NCBI GenBank assembly: GCA_028875055.1
Contig: JAPPGG010000012.1
Location: 1-36,297, forward strand
Origin: Chloroflexota bacterium
GTDB taxonomy: Bacteria > Chloroflexota > Dehalococcoidia > Lucifugimonadales > UBA3495
Direction of reading: 5' to 3'
Length of the DNA stretch: 36,297 bases
Shown here: piece by piece, positions 20,681 to 27,332 of the stretch
How positions within the stretch are numbered: the stretch's first letter is position 1
How the letters are laid out: every line of letters starts with the position of its first letter
Translations under genes and position numbers: made by a program
The notes under the pieces: generated by a model
Database searches by the model: none
What the model was told of the DNA's origin: nothing
What the model saw: only the letters and a program-made list of their open reading frames with translations

Positions 20681-21040
20681 CTAACGCGATATGCCCAGGG
20701 GGACATGATTGCTTGCTGCGAGCCCTGGCGCAATTTGAGCGGAAATTACTATGCGATTGTTCCGGGCCCCTGACGTAATTCTCCCTGGTTCAGTCACTCC
20801 ACTATGACATGATAGTAGGCGAGGGATATCCGGCCTGAAAAGGTGGGAATGTCAGCGCTATGGTGTTAACGGCAATACTGTGCATCGCCTTTCGGCAGGA
20901 CTCGGGATGATGTTTTTACTTTGCCTAAAGGCTTGCGCAATCCTGGTTGGAGGAAAAATCCCTCGGCCTTGAGCAGTATTGTCTTGGCCCTGAAGGAATG
21001 GGTATGCTATCTTGTAATTGCCCCGCCAAGTTAAAGGTTG

Positions 21041-22699
21041 ATGGCAACCGTCACACCGGTAACCGGAGGGTTTTTGGCTGAAGTCACCCGAACGGTCGAG
21101 GAACTGGGACGCTACGACACCCTGGTTGAGTCCACGCTAGCTAGGCTGGACCGGGAGAAGGTGGTCGCTCGCATGTGGCAAGGCGACCACCGAGTGTGGA
21201 GCGACGACCCAACTGAAATTGAAGACCGGCTGGGTTGGCTGACCATTCCCGAAAAAATGGCGGGCAAAGTCTCCGCCCTTTCCACTTTTGCCTCCCAGGT
21301 ACAGGGGGCCGGGTTCACCAACGTGGTACTGCTGGGAATGGGCGGCAGTAGCCTGGGCCCGGAAGTAATACGGCGAACCCTCGGCAGCTCGCCCGGCTTC
21401 CCGCAACTGCGGGTGCTGGATTCGACCCTACCTGCCTGGATTCAGGCAACGGATGCGGCCATTGATCCCGCCAGGACAATTTTCCTGGTTTCTTCAAAAT
21501 CCGGCACAACCATCGAGTCCACCACCCTCTGCGCCCATTTCCTCCAACGGGTAACCGATGCGGTGGGAGAGGGGCCGGCCGGCGGCAATTTCGTAGCTAT
21601 CACCGACCCAAGCACTCCACTGGAAGCCCTGGGGAAAAGGGAAGGCTTTCGCCAGGTTTTCCTGAATCACCCGGAAATTGGTGGGAGATACTCGGTACTG
21701 TCCTATTTCGGGATGGTGCCCGCGGCGCTGATCGGCCTGGACCTGGCAGACTTCCTGACCAGGGCTGGCGCCATGCAGGCAAGTTGCTCCGTTGCGGAGG
21801 CGACCGCCAACCCGGGGGCCAGGCTGGGGGCCATAATGGGGTCAATGGCATTGGAAGGTCGGGACAAGCTGACCCTGGTTACTTCGCCGGCGCTGGCCGG
21901 GTTCGGGCTGTGGGTAGAGCAACTGTTGGCCGAGAGCCTTGGCAAGTCGGGGAAGGGGATCATACCCGTGCCCGGTGAACCGGAGCTTCCGCCGGACCAA
22001 TACAGCAACGACCGACTGATCGTTTACCTTCGCCTGCGGGGAGACGACAACGCAGCTACCGACACTCTTACGGAGAGTCTTTCCGGCAAGCACCCTACGG
22101 TACAGCTGGAATTGTGCGACCGTACGGACCTGGGGGCCGAGTTCTACCGCTGGGAGTTTGCCACTGCCGTGGCCGGCCACATCCTGGGAGTCCACCCCTT
22201 CGATCAGCCCAATGTGCAGGGCGCCAAGGACAAGACGGACCTGGTGCTGGAACAGTTCACCGCCACCGGCCGCCTGCCGACCATAAGGACCGGCGAGGCC
22301 ATGGAGAGCCTGCTGGGAAAGGCCGAGGCCGGCGATTACCTGGCCATTCTGGCCTATTTGCCCGATGACGAAGAGGTCTGCAGGTCCCTGGCGCAACTCC
22401 GCCTCCGCCTTACCGAAAAGCTGGGGATTCCCACTACCACCGGCTTCGGACCCCGCTACCTCCACTCCACCGGCCAGTTGCACAAGGGAGGGCCAGGCTC
22501 CGGAATTTTCCTGCAGCTTACCGCAGACCATCCGGTGGAGATGCCGATACCGGGACGACCATACACCTTCGGAACCCTGGCCGATGCCCAGTCTGTCGGC
22601 GACCTTCAGGCCCTGCAGGAACTGGGAAGGCGAGCTGCCCGGGTACACCTTGGCGCTGACCCGACCGCAGGAATCCAGCGGCTGACCGCTTCACTTTAA
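21041..22699 (+). CDS. pgi: Glucose-6-phosphate isomerase (Tal-Pgi type, isomerase part only)
   Basis: This enzyme interconverts glucose-6-phosphate and fructose-6-phosphate. The 552-aa protein matches the C-terminal isomerase half of bifunctional transaldolase/Pgi proteins; the transaldolase half is absent. It has two SIS domains: the first with LLGMGGSSLGPEV and SSKSGTTIES (sugar-phosphate binding), the second ending in GPRYLHSTGQLHKGGPGSG with the conserved His and Lys. EIGGRYSVLS carries the Glu region of the active site. The start is placed at ATG 21041 with AAAGG a few nt upstream; a TTG just before it is also possible. It leads a co-directional cluster with gnd (28 nt later) and zwf, which suggests an oxidative pentose phosphate operon. 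Confidence 0.88.
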   Translation: MATVTPVTGGFLAEVTRTVEELGRYDTLVESTLARLDREKVVARMWQGDHRVWSDDPTEIEDRLGWLTIPEKMAGKVSALSTFASQVQGAGFTNVVLLGMGGSSLGPEVIRRTLGSSPGFPQLRVLDSTLPAWIQATDAAIDPARTIFLVSSKSGTTIESTTLCAHFLQRVTDAVGEGPAGGNFVAITDPSTPLEALGKREGFRQVFLNHPEIGGRYSVLSYFGMVPAALIGLDLADFLTRAGAMQASCSVAEATANPGARLGAIMGSMALEGRDKLTLVTSPALAGFGLWVEQLLAESLGKSGKGIIPVPGEPELPPDQYSNDRLIVYLRLRGDDNAATDTLTESLSGKHPTVQLELCDRTDLGAEFYRWEFATAVAGHILGVHPFDQPNVQGAKDKTDLVLEQFTATGRLPTIRTGEAMESLLGKAEAGDYLAILAYLPDDEEVCRSLAQLRLRLTEKLGIPTTTGFGPRYLHSTGQLHKGGPGSGIFLQLTADHPVEMPIPGRPYTFGTLADAQSVGDLQALQELGRRAARVHLGADPTAGIQRLTASL

Positions 22700-22727
22700 G
22701 CGCTTACCCCACAAGGGAGGTCAATCC

Positions 22728-23648
22728 GTGGAACTGGGAATGATCGGCCTGGGCCGCATGGGCGGCAACATGGCGCAGCGGCTGCTGGTCTCCGGCCACC
22801 GGGTAGTGGCCTACGACACCAACCAGGACGCCGTTGCCGGAAGCAGGTCCCTGGGCGCAGACGGGGCCAGCACCCTGGAAGAACTGACGGCCCAGCTCAC
22901 TCCCCCACGTCCCATATGGTTGATGCTCCCCCAGGGCCAGCCAACGGAAGACACCATGGACGCGCTGGCGCCCCTGCTGCAACCCGCCGACGTAATACTG
23001 GACGGTGGAAACGCCAATTACAAGGACACCCTGCGGCGGGCCGAAAAGCTGGCTGGAATGGGCATTGACCTGGTGGACGTGGGGACCAGCGGCGGCATCT
23101 GGGGCCTGTCAGAAGGCTATACGCTGATGGTGGGCGGGAAGGACGAAGTATTCCAGCGGCTGGAGCCCATATTCCAGTCCCTGGCCCCCGGCCCCGACCG
23201 GGGGTACAGCCACGTTGGGCCGGTTGGCGCGGGCCACTTCGTCAAGATGGTGCACAACGGGGTGGAGTATGCCCTGATGGAGGCCTACGCGGAAGGCTTC
23301 GAGTTGATGGCGGCCAAGGAGGAGTTCAACCTGGACCTGCCCAGGATTGCCAACACCTGGCGGCACGGCAGCGTGGTGCGGTCCTGGCTGCTGGACCTGG
23401 TGGTGTCGGCGCTGGAGGATGACCCGAGCCTGTCGGACCTGCAGGCCTACGTGGAGGACTCGGGCGAGGGCAGGTGGACGGTCCAGGAGTCGGTGGACCT
23501 CGCCGTGCCCGCTCCGGTCATAACCCTCTCCCTGCTGCAAAGATTCCGTTCCCGCCAGGCCCAGCCCTTTGGCGCCAAGCTGCTGGCCGCCCTGCGCAAC
23601 CAGTTCGGGGGCCACCCAGTGCGGAGGTCCGGCGATGGCGATGACTGA
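22728..23648 (+). CDS. gnd: 6-phosphogluconate dehydrogenase, decarboxylating (short GndA/YqeC type)
   Basis: This enzyme oxidises 6-phosphogluconate to ribulose-5-phosphate and CO2 with NAD(P)H formation. The 306-aa protein is the short form of the family. It has the Rossmann motif GLGRMGGNMA (residues 6-15), the substrate-binding DVGTSGGIWG, and the catalytic GPVGAGHFVKMVHNGVEY with Lys and His-Asn. The start is GTG at 22728, supported by GGGAGG 7 nt upstream. The stop TGA overlaps the first 14 nt of zwf, so translation is coupled. No 6-phosphogluconolactonase gene is in the cluster; the lactone may open spontaneously or by an enzyme encoded elsewhere. Cofactor preference (NAD versus NADP) was not determined. 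Confidence 0.9.
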   Translation: MELGMIGLGRMGGNMAQRLLVSGHRVVAYDTNQDAVAGSRSLGADGASTLEELTAQLTPPRPIWLMLPQGQPTEDTMDALAPLLQPADVILDGGNANYKDTLRRAEKLAGMGIDLVDVGTSGGIWGLSEGYTLMVGGKDEVFQRLEPIFQSLAPGPDRGYSHVGPVGAGHFVKMVHNGVEYALMEAYAEGFELMAAKEEFNLDLPRIANTWRHGSVVRSWLLDLVVSALEDDPSLSDLQAYVEDSGEGRWTVQESVDLAVPAPVITLSLLQRFRSRQAQPFGAKLLAALRNQFGGHPVRRSGDGDD

Positions 23649-25125
23649 GACGATTGAACTGCCTGACGGTCCCATTACCCTGGTAATTTTTGGCGCCAGT
23701 GGAGACCTGACGCGCCGCAAGCTGATTCCCGCCCTGGCCAGCCTGCACAGCAAGGGACGACTGCCCCCCGACCTGAACATACTGGGGGTGGCTCGCAGCG
23801 ATATGGGGGACGCCGAGTTTCACACCGTGCTTGAGGAATTCCTGGGCAGCGACGGGATGAGCAGGCCAACCCCCGGCCAGTGGGCCGAATTCACCTCCCG
23901 CCTCCACTACTTGCACGGGGACGTTACCAGCGCGGAGGACATGGAAGAGGTGAGGCGAAAGCTGGCCGACATTGAAGGCGAGGGCAATGTCGGCAACCGG
24001 CTTTACTATCTTTCCCTTGCTCCCTCCCTGTACCAGCCGGCCATAACGGGGCTGGGCAATGCCGGCATGGCAGACGACAGCAATAGCTGGCGGCGGCTGG
24101 TTGTTGAGAAGCCCTTCGGGACCGATCTGGCTTCAGCCCGGGGGTTAAACGACATCGCCCACTCGGTGTTCCGGGAAGACCAGGTGTTTCGCATCGACCA
24201 CTATCTAGGCAAGGAAACGGTGCAGAATCTGCTGGTGTTCCGCTTCGCCAACGCCATCTTTGAACCGGTCTGGAATCGCAACTACATTGACCACGTTCAG
24301 ATAACCGTGGCGGAAACCCTGCGGATTGACGAGAGGGGAGAGTACTACGACCAGACGGGCATTCTGCGGGACATGTTCCAGAACCACCTGCTCCAGCTGC
24401 TGACGCTGGTGGCCATGGAGCCGCCCCATGCCTTTGAGGCGGAGGCGCTGCGCAACGAGAAGGTGAAGGTTCTCAGCGCCATCCGGCGGATTCACGCCGA
24501 GGACGTGGGACGCCACGCCATTCCGGGCCAGTACCGCAGCTACCGGGATGAGCCCGGGGTTTCTCCCGATTCGGAAACAGCCACCTACGCCGCCCTGCGC
24601 CTTCACGTGGACAACTGGCGCTGGCAAGGGGTGCCGTTTTACTTGCGTTCCGGCAAGGCGCTGCGCAGCAAGTCCACCGAAATCATCATCCAGTTTCGCA
24701 ACCCGCCCCATATGCTTTTCCCCCTGGCGGAGGACGAGGACATTCCGGCCAACACCCTGGCGATATTCGTGCAGCCGGACGAGGGCTTTCACCTGGAGTT
24801 TCAGACCAAGACGCCGGAAGCGGGACTTCAGATGCGCAAGGCAGAGCTGGAGTTTCACTACCACGAGGCCTTCAGCGGGCAGGCCATCCCCGACGCCTAC
24901 GAGCGACTGCTGCTGGATGCCCTGAACGGCGACGCCTCTCTTTTCACCCGGGCGGACGAAATCGAGCAGGCCTGGGGCATTGTAGATCCCATAATTTCCG
25001 GCCTGGACCTCCCGCAGGCGCCCCGCCCCTATTACTACTCCGAGGGCAGCTGGGGCCCCGTGGAGTCTGACCGATTCCTGGGCGCTGACGGGCGAGCGTG
25101 GCTGTCCGGCGGCAGGTCACGGTGA
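23635..25125 (+). CDS. zwf: Glucose-6-phosphate 1-dehydrogenase
   Basis: This is the first step of the oxidative pentose phosphate pathway: it oxidises glucose-6-phosphate to 6-phosphogluconolactone with NADP. The 496-aa protein has the nucleotide motif FGASGDLTRRKLIPAL near the N-terminus, the active-site RIDHYLGKE with its catalytic His, and VEKPFGTDL. Length is normal. The ATG at 23635 is chosen because GGAGG lies 7 nt upstream and the protein then begins MAMTETIELPDG. A longer frame into gnd (from 23569) has no family resemblance. It overlaps gnd by 14 nt. It ends with TGA, showing that UGA works as a normal stop in this genome. The selenoprotein genes begin 223 nt downstream. Confidence 0.95.
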   Translation: MAMTETIELPDGPITLVIFGASGDLTRRKLIPALASLHSKGRLPPDLNILGVARSDMGDAEFHTVLEEFLGSDGMSRPTPGQWAEFTSRLHYLHGDVTSAEDMEEVRRKLADIEGEGNVGNRLYYLSLAPSLYQPAITGLGNAGMADDSNSWRRLVVEKPFGTDLASARGLNDIAHSVFREDQVFRIDHYLGKETVQNLLVFRFANAIFEPVWNRNYIDHVQITVAETLRIDERGEYYDQTGILRDMFQNHLLQLLTLVAMEPPHAFEAEALRNEKVKVLSAIRRIHAEDVGRHAIPGQYRSYRDEPGVSPDSETATYAALRLHVDNWRWQGVPFYLRSGKALRSKSTEIIIQFRNPPHMLFPLAEDEDIPANTLAIFVQPDEGFHLEFQTKTPEAGLQMRKAELEFHYHEAFSGQAIPDAYERLLLDALNGDASLFTRADEIEQAWGIVDPIISGLDLPQAPRPYYYSEGSWGPVESDRFLGADGRAWLSGGRSR

Positions 25126-25348: not shown

Positions 25349-26419
25349 ATGAGAATTTTGAAGCGACGCCTTGGCTCGCCCGGGCGTCGGCCTCTCAAGC
25401 CGGTGGCGCTGGTCTTTTCGACGCTGTTGCTGGTACTGGCCCTGGCCTGTGGAGCCGCTGACGAGCCGGTGGCGCCCGCTGCGCCAGCCAGCGACCCCAG
25501 CCCAGCGGTCCAGTCTCAGCCAGTCGCGCAGCCGGAGACTCCGGTGAATAGGGCTCCGGCGGAGCAACCCGAGGCGGCAACCGCGACGGAGAGCATGGCC
25601 AGGACGGAACCGGCGCCTGCCACGGACAGCCAGCAGCAGCAGCCGCTGATAGTGCAGCCGTCGGTCAAGCAAATGCCAGTTGAGCAACCGGCCGCTGTGG
25701 AAGCCATTCCTGAAAAGGCCATGGAAGAGCCGCAGGCCCCGGCGGCAGATACCGTAGAGTCCCAGCCCGAGCCTGTGGTGAAGGCCATGGAAACGCAGGC
25801 AGAACCCGCTTCCGAGCCCACCGAGGTTGTGCCGGCAAAGCAGGAAGCCGCTCCGGAGCCGGTCCCCGCTGAACCCGCGCCCGCGCCGGTGGTGGTACCC
25901 GCGCCGGTTCCCACGGCAGCGCCCGCGCCCGTGCCGACGGAGGCGCCGGTGGTCCAGGAGCCTTTGCCCGACATTGGAAACCAGGTAGGCAACCGGATGC
26001 CGGACTTCACCCTGGAGCTGGTGGGGGGAGCCACCGTTTCAGTATCCAGCCTGGTGGAGTCGGGCAAACCTGCCTTCCTGTTCTTTACCTCCTCTACTTG
26101 AGGGCAGTGCGCTGCCGAGTTGCGGCAGATGAAGTCCATCTACCCGGAGTACGCTGAACAGGTTAACTTTTTCTCGATCGCAGTTTCCAAGTCCTTTGAC
26201 AACCTGGACCGGCTGGAGAACCAGCGCCAGAAGCAGGGGTATCCGTGGCCGGTGGCCAATATAGTTGAAGAGAGCCATGCATTATCTGCGCTGAATGTTT
26301 CCTACCAGTCCACCAAGATAGCCTTTGACTCCCGGGGCGTTATTACTTACCGGGACGGCTTTGGAGGCGGCAGCTCCAGCACGTGGCACCAGGTATTTTC
26401 GGACCTGGCGAGTCAGTAG
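25349..26419 (+). CDS. Putative selenoprotein: membrane-linked TlpA/ResA-like thioredoxin-fold protein, UGA-encoded residue 251 (U-G-Q-C)
   Basis: The reading frame from ATG 25349 meets TGA at 26099-26101 and continues in the same frame to TAG at 26419, giving 356 aa if UGA is read as selenocysteine. Residues 1-34 form a basic signal/anchor with a hydrophobic stretch and a lipobox-like ALAC ending at C34, so it is probably an exported lipoprotein. Residues about 35-205 are a Pro/Ala/Val/Glu-rich linker. From about 211 a thioredoxin-like domain begins (NQVGNRMPDFTLEL, then PAFLFFTSST), and the UGA falls exactly at the first position of the CxxC motif: U251-G-Q-C254. The frame then keeps family sequence (AAELRQMKSIYPEY, then YQSTKIAFDSRG). 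It is paralogous to the gene at 26700. A hairpin lies right after the UGA. A truncating nonsense mutation is the alternative, but two paralogs with UGA at the same codon make that unlikely. Sec machinery is not in this window. Confidence 0.82.
26099..26128 (+). promoter_or_regulatory. In-frame UGA with bacterial SECIS-like hairpin, gene 1
   Basis: UGA (26099-26101) is followed after 10 nt by a perfect 6-bp stem CUGCCG (26112-26117)/CGGCAG (26123-26128) with loop AGUUG. The loop G is at 26119, 17 nt after the UGA, within the usual range for bacterial SECIS elements. The same geometry recurs at 27012-27041. A competing stem GGCAG/CUGCC (26103-26107/26112-26116) shares bases with it. Confidence 0.7.
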
Positions 26420-26478: not shown

Positions 26479-26640
26479 ATACATCGTTACTGTTCAGAGT
26501 TGGAGATATTGCCTGCCCATACACCCGTCATACCCCCTACCCAACCCACGACCTGCGCAGGTTCCAGGTTCCCGCCTGCGCGGGAACGACGGGTTTTCCA
26601 GCCTTGTAACACACCAAGTCTGAACAGTTACAATACATCG
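26479..26640. mobile_element. MITE-like element with 8-bp flanking duplication
   Basis: The direct repeat ATACATCG occurs at 26479-26486 and 26633-26640. Between them, 26487-26632 (146 bp) has terminal inverted repeats: left TTACTGTTCAGAGTTGG (26487-26503) and right CCAAGTCTGAACAGTTA (26614-26630), matching at 15 of 17 positions. Inside are the palindrome ACCTGCGCAGGT (26551-26562) and an 8-bp hairpin GTTCCCGC/GCGGGAAC (26568-26587). It has no coding capacity. It sits in the 280-nt gap between the two selenoprotein genes. A degenerate relative of its right half lies at 69-135. The mobilising transposase is not in the window. Confidence 0.65.
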
Positions 26641-26699: not shown

Positions 26700-27332
26700 A
26701 TGAACAAAAACGGTTGGATAGGCAAGGCGTTGCTGGGGCTGGCGATTTTCCTGCCGGTGGCGGGACTTGCGGTTTCGGTGTACCTGTCTTCCGGAAACCA
26801 ATCCCCTTCAAATTCCCCTTCCACTGAAACGCCTGCCGCCGAAGAGTACGTATTGACGGCGGCGGACTTTCCTGAAGTGCGGGATACGGGCAACCAGGTC
26901 GGGTATCGGATACCCGACGTTACAATGGAACTGTATGACGGGACGACCGTCACCTCCGCCAGCCTGGTGGACCAGGGGAGACCAACCTACCTGTTTTTCT
27001 GGGCAACGATTTGACCGGTGTGCACCGCCGAGTTACGGCGGATGAAGGACATTTACCCCCAGTACGCTGACGACGTGGACTTCTATGCAATTGGGGTTCA
27101 CCCGGGAATAGTGGAAGACATAGAGACCCTCGAGAAGTACCGGGCTGAAAGGCAGCACCCATGGCCGGTGGCCACCGCGCCGTCGGAAGTAATGGCGGAA
27201 CTGGGCGTCACCATTCAGTCAACCAAGATAGCCTTTGACTCCACGGGGACCATCGTTTACCGGGAAGGCATGGGACTGGGATCCGACGAAGACTGGCACC
27301 AGATATTTACCGAGCTGTCCCAGGCTCAGTAA
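26700..27332 (+). CDS. Putative selenoprotein: membrane-anchored TlpA/ResA-like thioredoxin-fold protein, UGA-encoded residue 105 (U-P-V-C)
   Basis: The frame from ATG 26700 meets TGA at 27012-27014 and continues to TAA at 27332, 210 aa with selenocysteine at residue 105. Residues about 9-30 are a single hydrophobic segment (signal anchor), followed by a short Ser/Pro/Glu-rich spacer. The thioredoxin-like domain begins near 65 (NQVGYRIPDVTMEL). The active-site block reads WATI-U105-P-V-C108-TAELRRM, the textbook WATWCxPC pattern of TlpA/ResA proteins with the nucleophilic Cys replaced by UGA. Downstream it carries HPWPVAT and QSTKIAFDSTGTIVYREG, shared with the paralog at 25349, including near-identical DNA around the QSTKIAFDS codons. 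It lacks the long Pro/Ala linker of the paralog. It probably acts as an extracytoplasmic thiol-selenol reductase or peroxidase-like enzyme; substrate unknown. Confidence 0.83.
27012..27041 (+). promoter_or_regulatory. In-frame UGA with bacterial SECIS-like hairpin, gene 2
   Basis: UGA (27012-27014) is followed after 10 nt by a perfect 6-bp stem CCGCCG (27025-27030)/CGGCGG (27036-27041) with loop AGUUA; the loop G is at 27032, again 17 nt after the UGA. Compared with the copy in gene 1, one U-A pair (26113/26127) is replaced by C-G (27026/27040), a compensatory change that keeps the stem while altering an amino acid (Gln to Arg). Confidence 0.72.

Follow-up and report, generated by a model that had tools for sequence, protein, structure and literature searches.

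The locus examined here raises the question of whether two neighboring genes of a Chloroflexota bacterium, each interrupted by an in-frame TGA, are broken genes or genes for selenocysteine (Sec) proteins. Both lie in the window, the whole stretch of 36 297 nucleotides that was analyzed, and we refer to the upstream, stalked form as gene 1 and to the downstream, short form as gene 2 (Table 1). We put at about 95% the probability that 26700–27332 and 25349–26419 encode paralogous, membrane-anchored selenoproteins of the TlpA/ResA fold, in which a SECIS-directed Sec is the leading residue of a UxxC site and which most likely act as an extracytoplasmic seleno-thioredoxin/peroxidase-like reductase. 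As judged from the sequences, the reading of the UGA codons in both genes as Sec is very well supported. The reading frame, the machinery, the SECIS, the Sec/Cys interchange and the fold were established by computation, the coding of Sec by comparison among relatives and the fold by prediction.

Table 1. Positions of the two genes and their parts in the window.
Feature	Coordinates	Strand	Description
Gene 2, short form	26700..27332	+	210-residue read-through TlpA/ResA-like selenoprotein
Gene 1, stalked form	25349..26419	+	356-residue read-through paralogue; 49% identity to gene 2 over the domain
Gene 2 Sec codon UGA	27012..27014	+	Residue 105, U of UPVC
Gene 1 Sec codon UGA	26099..26101	+	Residue 251, U of UGQC
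Gene 2 second active-site Cys	27021..27023	+	Residue 108; invariant in 136/136 family rows
Gene 2 N-terminal hydrophobic signal anchor	26727..26786	+	About residues 10–29, no lipobox; predicted from hydropathy
Gene 1 lipobox Cys	25448..25450	+	Residue 34, LALAC-G; putative, from sequence
Gene 1 Pro/Ala/Glu-rich stalk	25451..25969	+	57% P+A+E; 166-residue linker after the hydrophobic anchor
Gene 2 SECIS hairpin	27025..27041	+	CCGCCG-AGUUA-CGGCGG; hairpin alone −10.2 kcal/mol
Gene 1 SECIS hairpin	26112..26128	+	CUGCCG-AGUUG-CGGCAG; hairpin alone −8.9 kcal/mol

When the TGA is read as a residue, gene 2 is a single frame with exactly one TGA (...YLFFWATI-U-PVC-TAELRRMK...). The original prediction had placed this codon at 27012–27014 within the block WATI-U-PVC; the position is right, and the TGA is the only interruption of gene 2. 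Gene 1 likewise contains one TGA (...FLFFTSST-U-GQC-AAELRQMK...), which lies at the homologous codon, as had been claimed for the paralogue. The read-through products of both genes match AhpC-TSA/Redoxin across the TGA, and they match ResA/TlpA-like NCBIfam models at scores well under the cut-offs (33 of 170 bits for ResA). Under translation table 11, gene 2 falls into two 104-residue open reading frames, 26700–27014 and the GTG-started 27018–27332; standard gene calls split genes of this kind. The description of one protein as stalked and the other as short also agrees with the sequences, since gene 1 has a Pro/Ala/Glu-rich stalk and gene 2 a short linker. The most fitting assignment for gene 1 is a lipoprotein and for gene 2 a signal-anchor protein, both predicted from the N-terminal sequence. 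In one relative (G179, L027), the stalk of the gene 1 orthologue is broken by a TAG and a frame change while the domain is intact; the contig is short (3.3 kb) and of low coverage, and the break is either an assembly error or stalk decay.

A hairpin follows each UGA. In both genes it begins 11 nt after the UGA, has six base pairs and an AGUUR loop, and is placed with a UGA-to-loop spacing of 16 nt; the two differ by one compensatory pair change. The bacterial SECIS rules given in PMC13188914 are a loop of 3–9 nt with G and then G/U among the first loop positions, a stem of 4–16 bp, a UGA-to-loop spacing of 16–37 nt and a minimum free energy of −7.5 or lower, and both hairpins satisfy them. A search of the region against Rfam gave chance hits and no bacterial SECIS match. 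Among relatives, six pairs (with a single bulge allowed) form in 114 of the 129 distinct UGA sequences, and the other 15 form five. Shuffling synonymous codons gives 5.8 six-pair sequences as the expectation and 13 as the maximum in 300 shuffles, and six pairs form in 0/16 Cys homologues. The pair columns hold many compensatory pair types (for example, CG 66 and TA 14 at one pair). The loop leucine codon (U+7) is TTR in 114/114 sequences compared with 227/1350 (17%) elsewhere in the same domains, an excess with p ~3 × 10⁻⁸⁰; the SECIS p-values are only indicative because the sequences are related. Since pairing goes beyond the synonymous null, a constraint on the RNA can be told apart from that on the protein.

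The source genome (3.75 Mb, 98% complete) contains the full machinery for Sec: SelA (450 bits), SelB (345 bits over its cut-off), SelD (385 bits) and a tRNA-Sec (67.5 bits) with anticodon TCA (UCA). A normal tRNA-Trp(CCA) is present beside the tRNA-Sec. The SelD gene (G000:C49:5814-6737, L019) contains one in-frame TGA itself, so SelD is probably a selenoprotein too.

To follow the codon through relatives, 250 genomes of the source order were searched, and the domain copies were aligned and freed of duplicates. A match occurs in 222 of the 250 genomes, and 135 non-redundant domain copies have UGA at the same column. Across these copies, 87–114 residues are aligned after the UGA. The aligned domains contain no second in-frame UGA, TAA or TAG in any of the 135; stops or frameshifts downstream of the UGA in relatives, named in the original prediction as the result that would speak against it, were looked for and none occurs in the aligned domains past the UGA. 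The codons after the UGA are under purifying selection: dN/dS among close orthologues is 0 to 0.19 for gene 2 and 0.10 to 0.30 for gene 1, comparable to or lower than the values before the UGA (0.06–0.30) in most comparisons. The original prediction had also argued that two independent nonsense mutations at homologous active-site codons would be very unlikely. The tree gives a UGA-bearing ancestor of both paralogues, so the two codons share one ancestry and that argument fails, while the conclusion of Sec stands.

These data bear on two explanations without Sec. If the UGAs were ordinary stops or nonsense mutations, the downstream halves would be pseudogene remnants or separate short genes, as the two table 11 frames of gene 2 could suggest. 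Such a stop would cut the thioredoxin fold within its active site, and the 135 relatives retain the UGA and then continue with intact, selectively constrained sequence, with a covarying SECIS that occurs only alongside UGA; we therefore reject a frame disruption or pseudogene and regard ordinary stops as extremely improbable. The other explanation is that UGA is reassigned genome-wide, for example to Trp, or is decoded by a suppressor tRNA, selenium playing no part. One relative with TGG at the Sec codon would fit this (G249, L079, strand −, domain start 1141). However, TGA is a normal terminator, being the terminal stop in 48 of the family's genes, the tRNA-Trp is normal and accompanied by tRNA-Sec(UCA), the Sec machinery is complete, SECIS elements are present and the replacement residue is Cys in six family members. 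Genome-wide recoding is thus rejected, and a reading of UGA without selenium has hardly any probability left. The TGG copy keeps its SECIS intact (6/6 pairs) and has in G246 a UGA sister of nearly the same sequence; either Sec truly changed to Trp here or the codon was misread in sequencing.

At the column of the Sec codon, 16 copies have Cys, six inside the family and ten in classical TlpA paralogues, and one has TGG. The Cys rows of the tree lie at separate places within the UGA clade, so we take Sec to be ancestral in the family and count about three changes to Cys. SelA occurs in 202 of the 250 genomes and in 89 of the 95 with a UGA copy; the six without it are at most 83% complete, and several Sec genomes are incomplete metagenome-assembled genomes. 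The Cys-only genomes of at least 90% completeness, G245 (97%) and G151 (91%), both lack SelA and SelB. The Cys members G166, G167, G168 and G170 (family f35) retain SelB, and a switch to Cys is therefore possible without losing the machinery. As the genomes are related, the Fisher value for this Sec/Cys comparison is indicative only. Near fixation of Sec at a single active-site position throughout an order, with rare replacement by Cys, appears to be new. A DNA pattern of UGA plus SECIS was also searched in about 85 000 species genomes and gave 49 contigs, 48 of them from Chloroflexi/Dehalococcoidia/SAR202; because the pattern derives from this family, it maps the occurrence of the family and not of other selenoproteins. 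The remaining contig, from Sedimentisphaerales (L189), shows no homology in any frame and was taken as chance. Beyond the order, a sample of the whole phylum has high-scoring UGA copies in only two genomes, together with a few weaker ones.

For the gene 2 domain, the AlphaFold model (pLDDT 91) has ResA (PDB 4nmu) as its best PDB match with a TM score of 0.84, and the best match in a PDB sequence search is also ResA; the predicted fold is a thioredoxin fold of the TlpA/ResA type. The family rows have Sec or Cys at position 0 and Cys at +3, a WCxxC site with Sec allowed in place of the first Cys. Position −1 is Trp in 105/136 rows (genes 1 and 2 have Thr and Ile, respectively) and position −3 is Ala in 111, Ser in 13 and Thr in 12, which gives the motif WATW-U-P-x-C; Glu lies three residues after the second Cys in 125/136. 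By analogy, Cys108 of gene 2 would be the resolving Cys. The cis-proline that faces the active site is lacking in the family: the position is Ser in 105, Ala in 20, Met in 9 and Pro in 1 of the 136 rows and is preceded by Gln in 129, compared with Pro in 10/10 classical TlpA rows. This Gln-Ser/Ala replacement appears to be new, and the chemistry may differ as a result. A hydrophobic N-terminus is present in 127 UGA rows and a lipobox-like site in 104, so that anchoring is predicted on the primary structure only. In summary, the pair fits the predicted tandem of membrane-anchored, selenol-based thioredoxin-fold proteins through the Sec machinery, the SECIS, the Sec/Cys interchange and the conservation after the UGA. 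The proposed likeness to TlpA/ResA holds for fold and motif but not for the cis-proline or for CcdA/DsbD, which is absent.

For export, catalysis, substrate and the direction of electron flow, we infer the following scheme. SelB on the SECIS hairpin immediately 3′ of the UGA would deliver Sec-tRNA-Sec, and the UGA would be read as Sec at the first position of UxxC. The products would be exported and membrane-anchored with the TlpA/ResA-fold domain displayed outside the membrane, the gene 1 product on a lipid anchor and long Pro-rich stalk and the gene 2 product on a signal anchor and short linker. The selenol would most likely attack an oxidized partner (a protein disulfide, a peroxide or a sulfenate), the Cys three residues on would resolve the intermediate as a selenenylsulfide, and a donor would then re-reduce the site. 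Neither CcdA/DsbD (PF02683) nor VKOR, as a possible oxidant, was found in the source genome. PF02683 is missing from 46 of 50 family genomes, single-contig ones included, and present in only four, an absence that appears to be new. Thus, there is no support for electron transfer along a ResA-like route, despite the ResA-like fold and motif. The source genome does have extracytoplasmic redox proteins.

The missing CcdA/DsbD reductant and cis-proline could also mean that the proteins are mainly extracytoplasmic peroxidases of a peroxiredoxin-like kind, not protein-disulfide reductases; AhpC-TSA is the best Pfam match in all 18 members of a family alignment. We consider this possible but doubtful, as ResA-type thiol-disulfide oxidoreductases are the best matches both by structure and in the PDB sequence search, the spacing of the UxxC site and the Glu at +3 from the Cys are as in ResA, and the peroxidatic TxxC/TxxU motif of peroxiredoxins is absent as a rule from the 136 family rows. 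Whether the two selenoproteins work together is a separate matter. As had been suggested, the two genes occur side by side as a conserved pair in SAR202/Dehalococcoidia genomes; the family as a whole has UGA in 135 and Cys in six members. Two or three copies occur in 33 of 102 locus-strand groups, and in several separate clades the tandem copies group as sisters; duplication, or concerted evolution, has thus recurred. In all 28 pairs with both anchors placeable, a longer linker of 78–188 residues accompanies a shorter one of 1–48; this difference exceeds random pairing (p ~1.5 × 10⁻⁴, one value for each of seven clades, whose boundaries we chose from the tree). Two UGA domains are joined in one frame by a Pro/Thr-rich linker in G018 (L072), G163 (L112) and G165 (L099), which are predicted to be two-Sec fusion proteins and come from two families. 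Such repeated long/short duplications, sometimes fused to one two-Sec protein, appear to be new, and our hypothesis is that the two proteins cooperate. On the other hand, 69 of the 102 groups hold one copy, the order of long and short copies varies between clades and no conserved operon partner was found across families; synteny is within-genus only, with otherwise scattered neighbors, and so gives no functional hint. The chances are therefore about even that genes 1 and 2 are selenoproteins linked only by frequent tandem duplication and serving unrelated substrates, set against duplicates that arose or were kept in separate clades, always as long plus short where measurable, and are fused in two families. 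More tentatively, we propose an envelope selenol relay for SAR202-type Chloroflexota, in which a UxxC head lacking the cis-proline was repeatedly duplicated or fused, and a head near the membrane and a far one on a long proline-rich stalk may jointly move electrons or reduce substrates across the envelope with a donor other than CcdA/DsbD. Separately, a sponge SAR202 genome of the same genus (G176, L028, G176:C53:21749-23861) has three tandem UGA copies.

Several known systems resemble the family in part. UxxC selenoproteins of the same fold are already catalogued (PMC2398784, PMC9312934 and PMC13188914) and, as far as described in the accessible text of these papers, share with genes 1 and 2 the fold class, the Sec position, an in-gene bacterial SECIS and Cys homologues, whereas neither the paired or fused long–short architecture nor the cis-proline replacement was found in that text. 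The three papers make no mention of Chloroflexi/Chloroflexota or SAR202, and the literature searched on selenoproteins of SAR202, Dehalococcoidia or Chloroflexota contained no account of these genes. The paired or fused near–far architecture, the loss of the cis-proline and the order-wide fixation of Sec set the family apart; the catalogued marine sequences may include the clade. NCBIfam NF041054 (ResA-like WAxxUGC motif protein) and NF053656 (redoxin TUGYCR) are seleno-thioredoxin-fold models of related sequence, and each matches only 2/18 members of the family alignment (E of 1 × 10⁻⁶ and 2 × 10⁻⁵); their motifs are UGC and TUGYC, compared with UPVC in gene 2. ResA of Bacillus (PDB 4nmu and 1st9) and TlpA/StoA/CcmG share the fold, a membrane-anchored extracytoplasmic domain, the two-residue active-site spacing and the conserved Glu at +3 from the second Cys; they differ in having Cys where the family has Sec and cis-Pro where it has Gln-Ser/Ala, in addition to the low ResA score and the CcdA/DsbD absence given above. 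Pneumococcal Etrx1 and Etrx2 (PDB 4hqs and 4hqz) are structural matches too: they are lipid-anchored, and two TlpA-like proteins occur in one organism, although they use Cys and the present family Sec. Etrx1 and Etrx2 work with CcdA, which the source genome lacks.

According to these results, an uncultured lineage of marine and sponge-associated bacteria uses selenium outside its cytoplasmic membrane, and if its envelope proteins depend on Sec, these bacteria are tied to the selenium supply. The missing CcdA/DsbD poses a concrete question about the electron donor, and the near/far pairing with two-Sec fusions offers a testable idea of why two selenol heads stay together. The same-genus relative G176 is MPMM01000002, SAR202 bin22 of the sponge Aplysina aerophoba; according to the accessible text of PMC5649159, SelA and SelB co-occur in most sponge symbiont bins, and that text makes no mention of selenoproteins of the gene 1/2 type.

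Within the genus, related genomes have the pair flanked by a glucose-6-phosphate dehydrogenase gene on the upstream side and by UvrD/PcrA on the downstream side. In the window, the upstream region 21038–25125 holds phosphoglucose isomerase-, 6-phosphogluconate dehydrogenase- and glucose-6-phosphate dehydrogenase-like genes. Between genes 1 and 2, an inverted repeat at 26483–26634, with 21-nt arms of 86% complementarity set 110 nt apart, encloses CCCGCCTGCGCGGGAACGACGGG; it occurs once in the window and looks like a small REP/MITE-type insertion.
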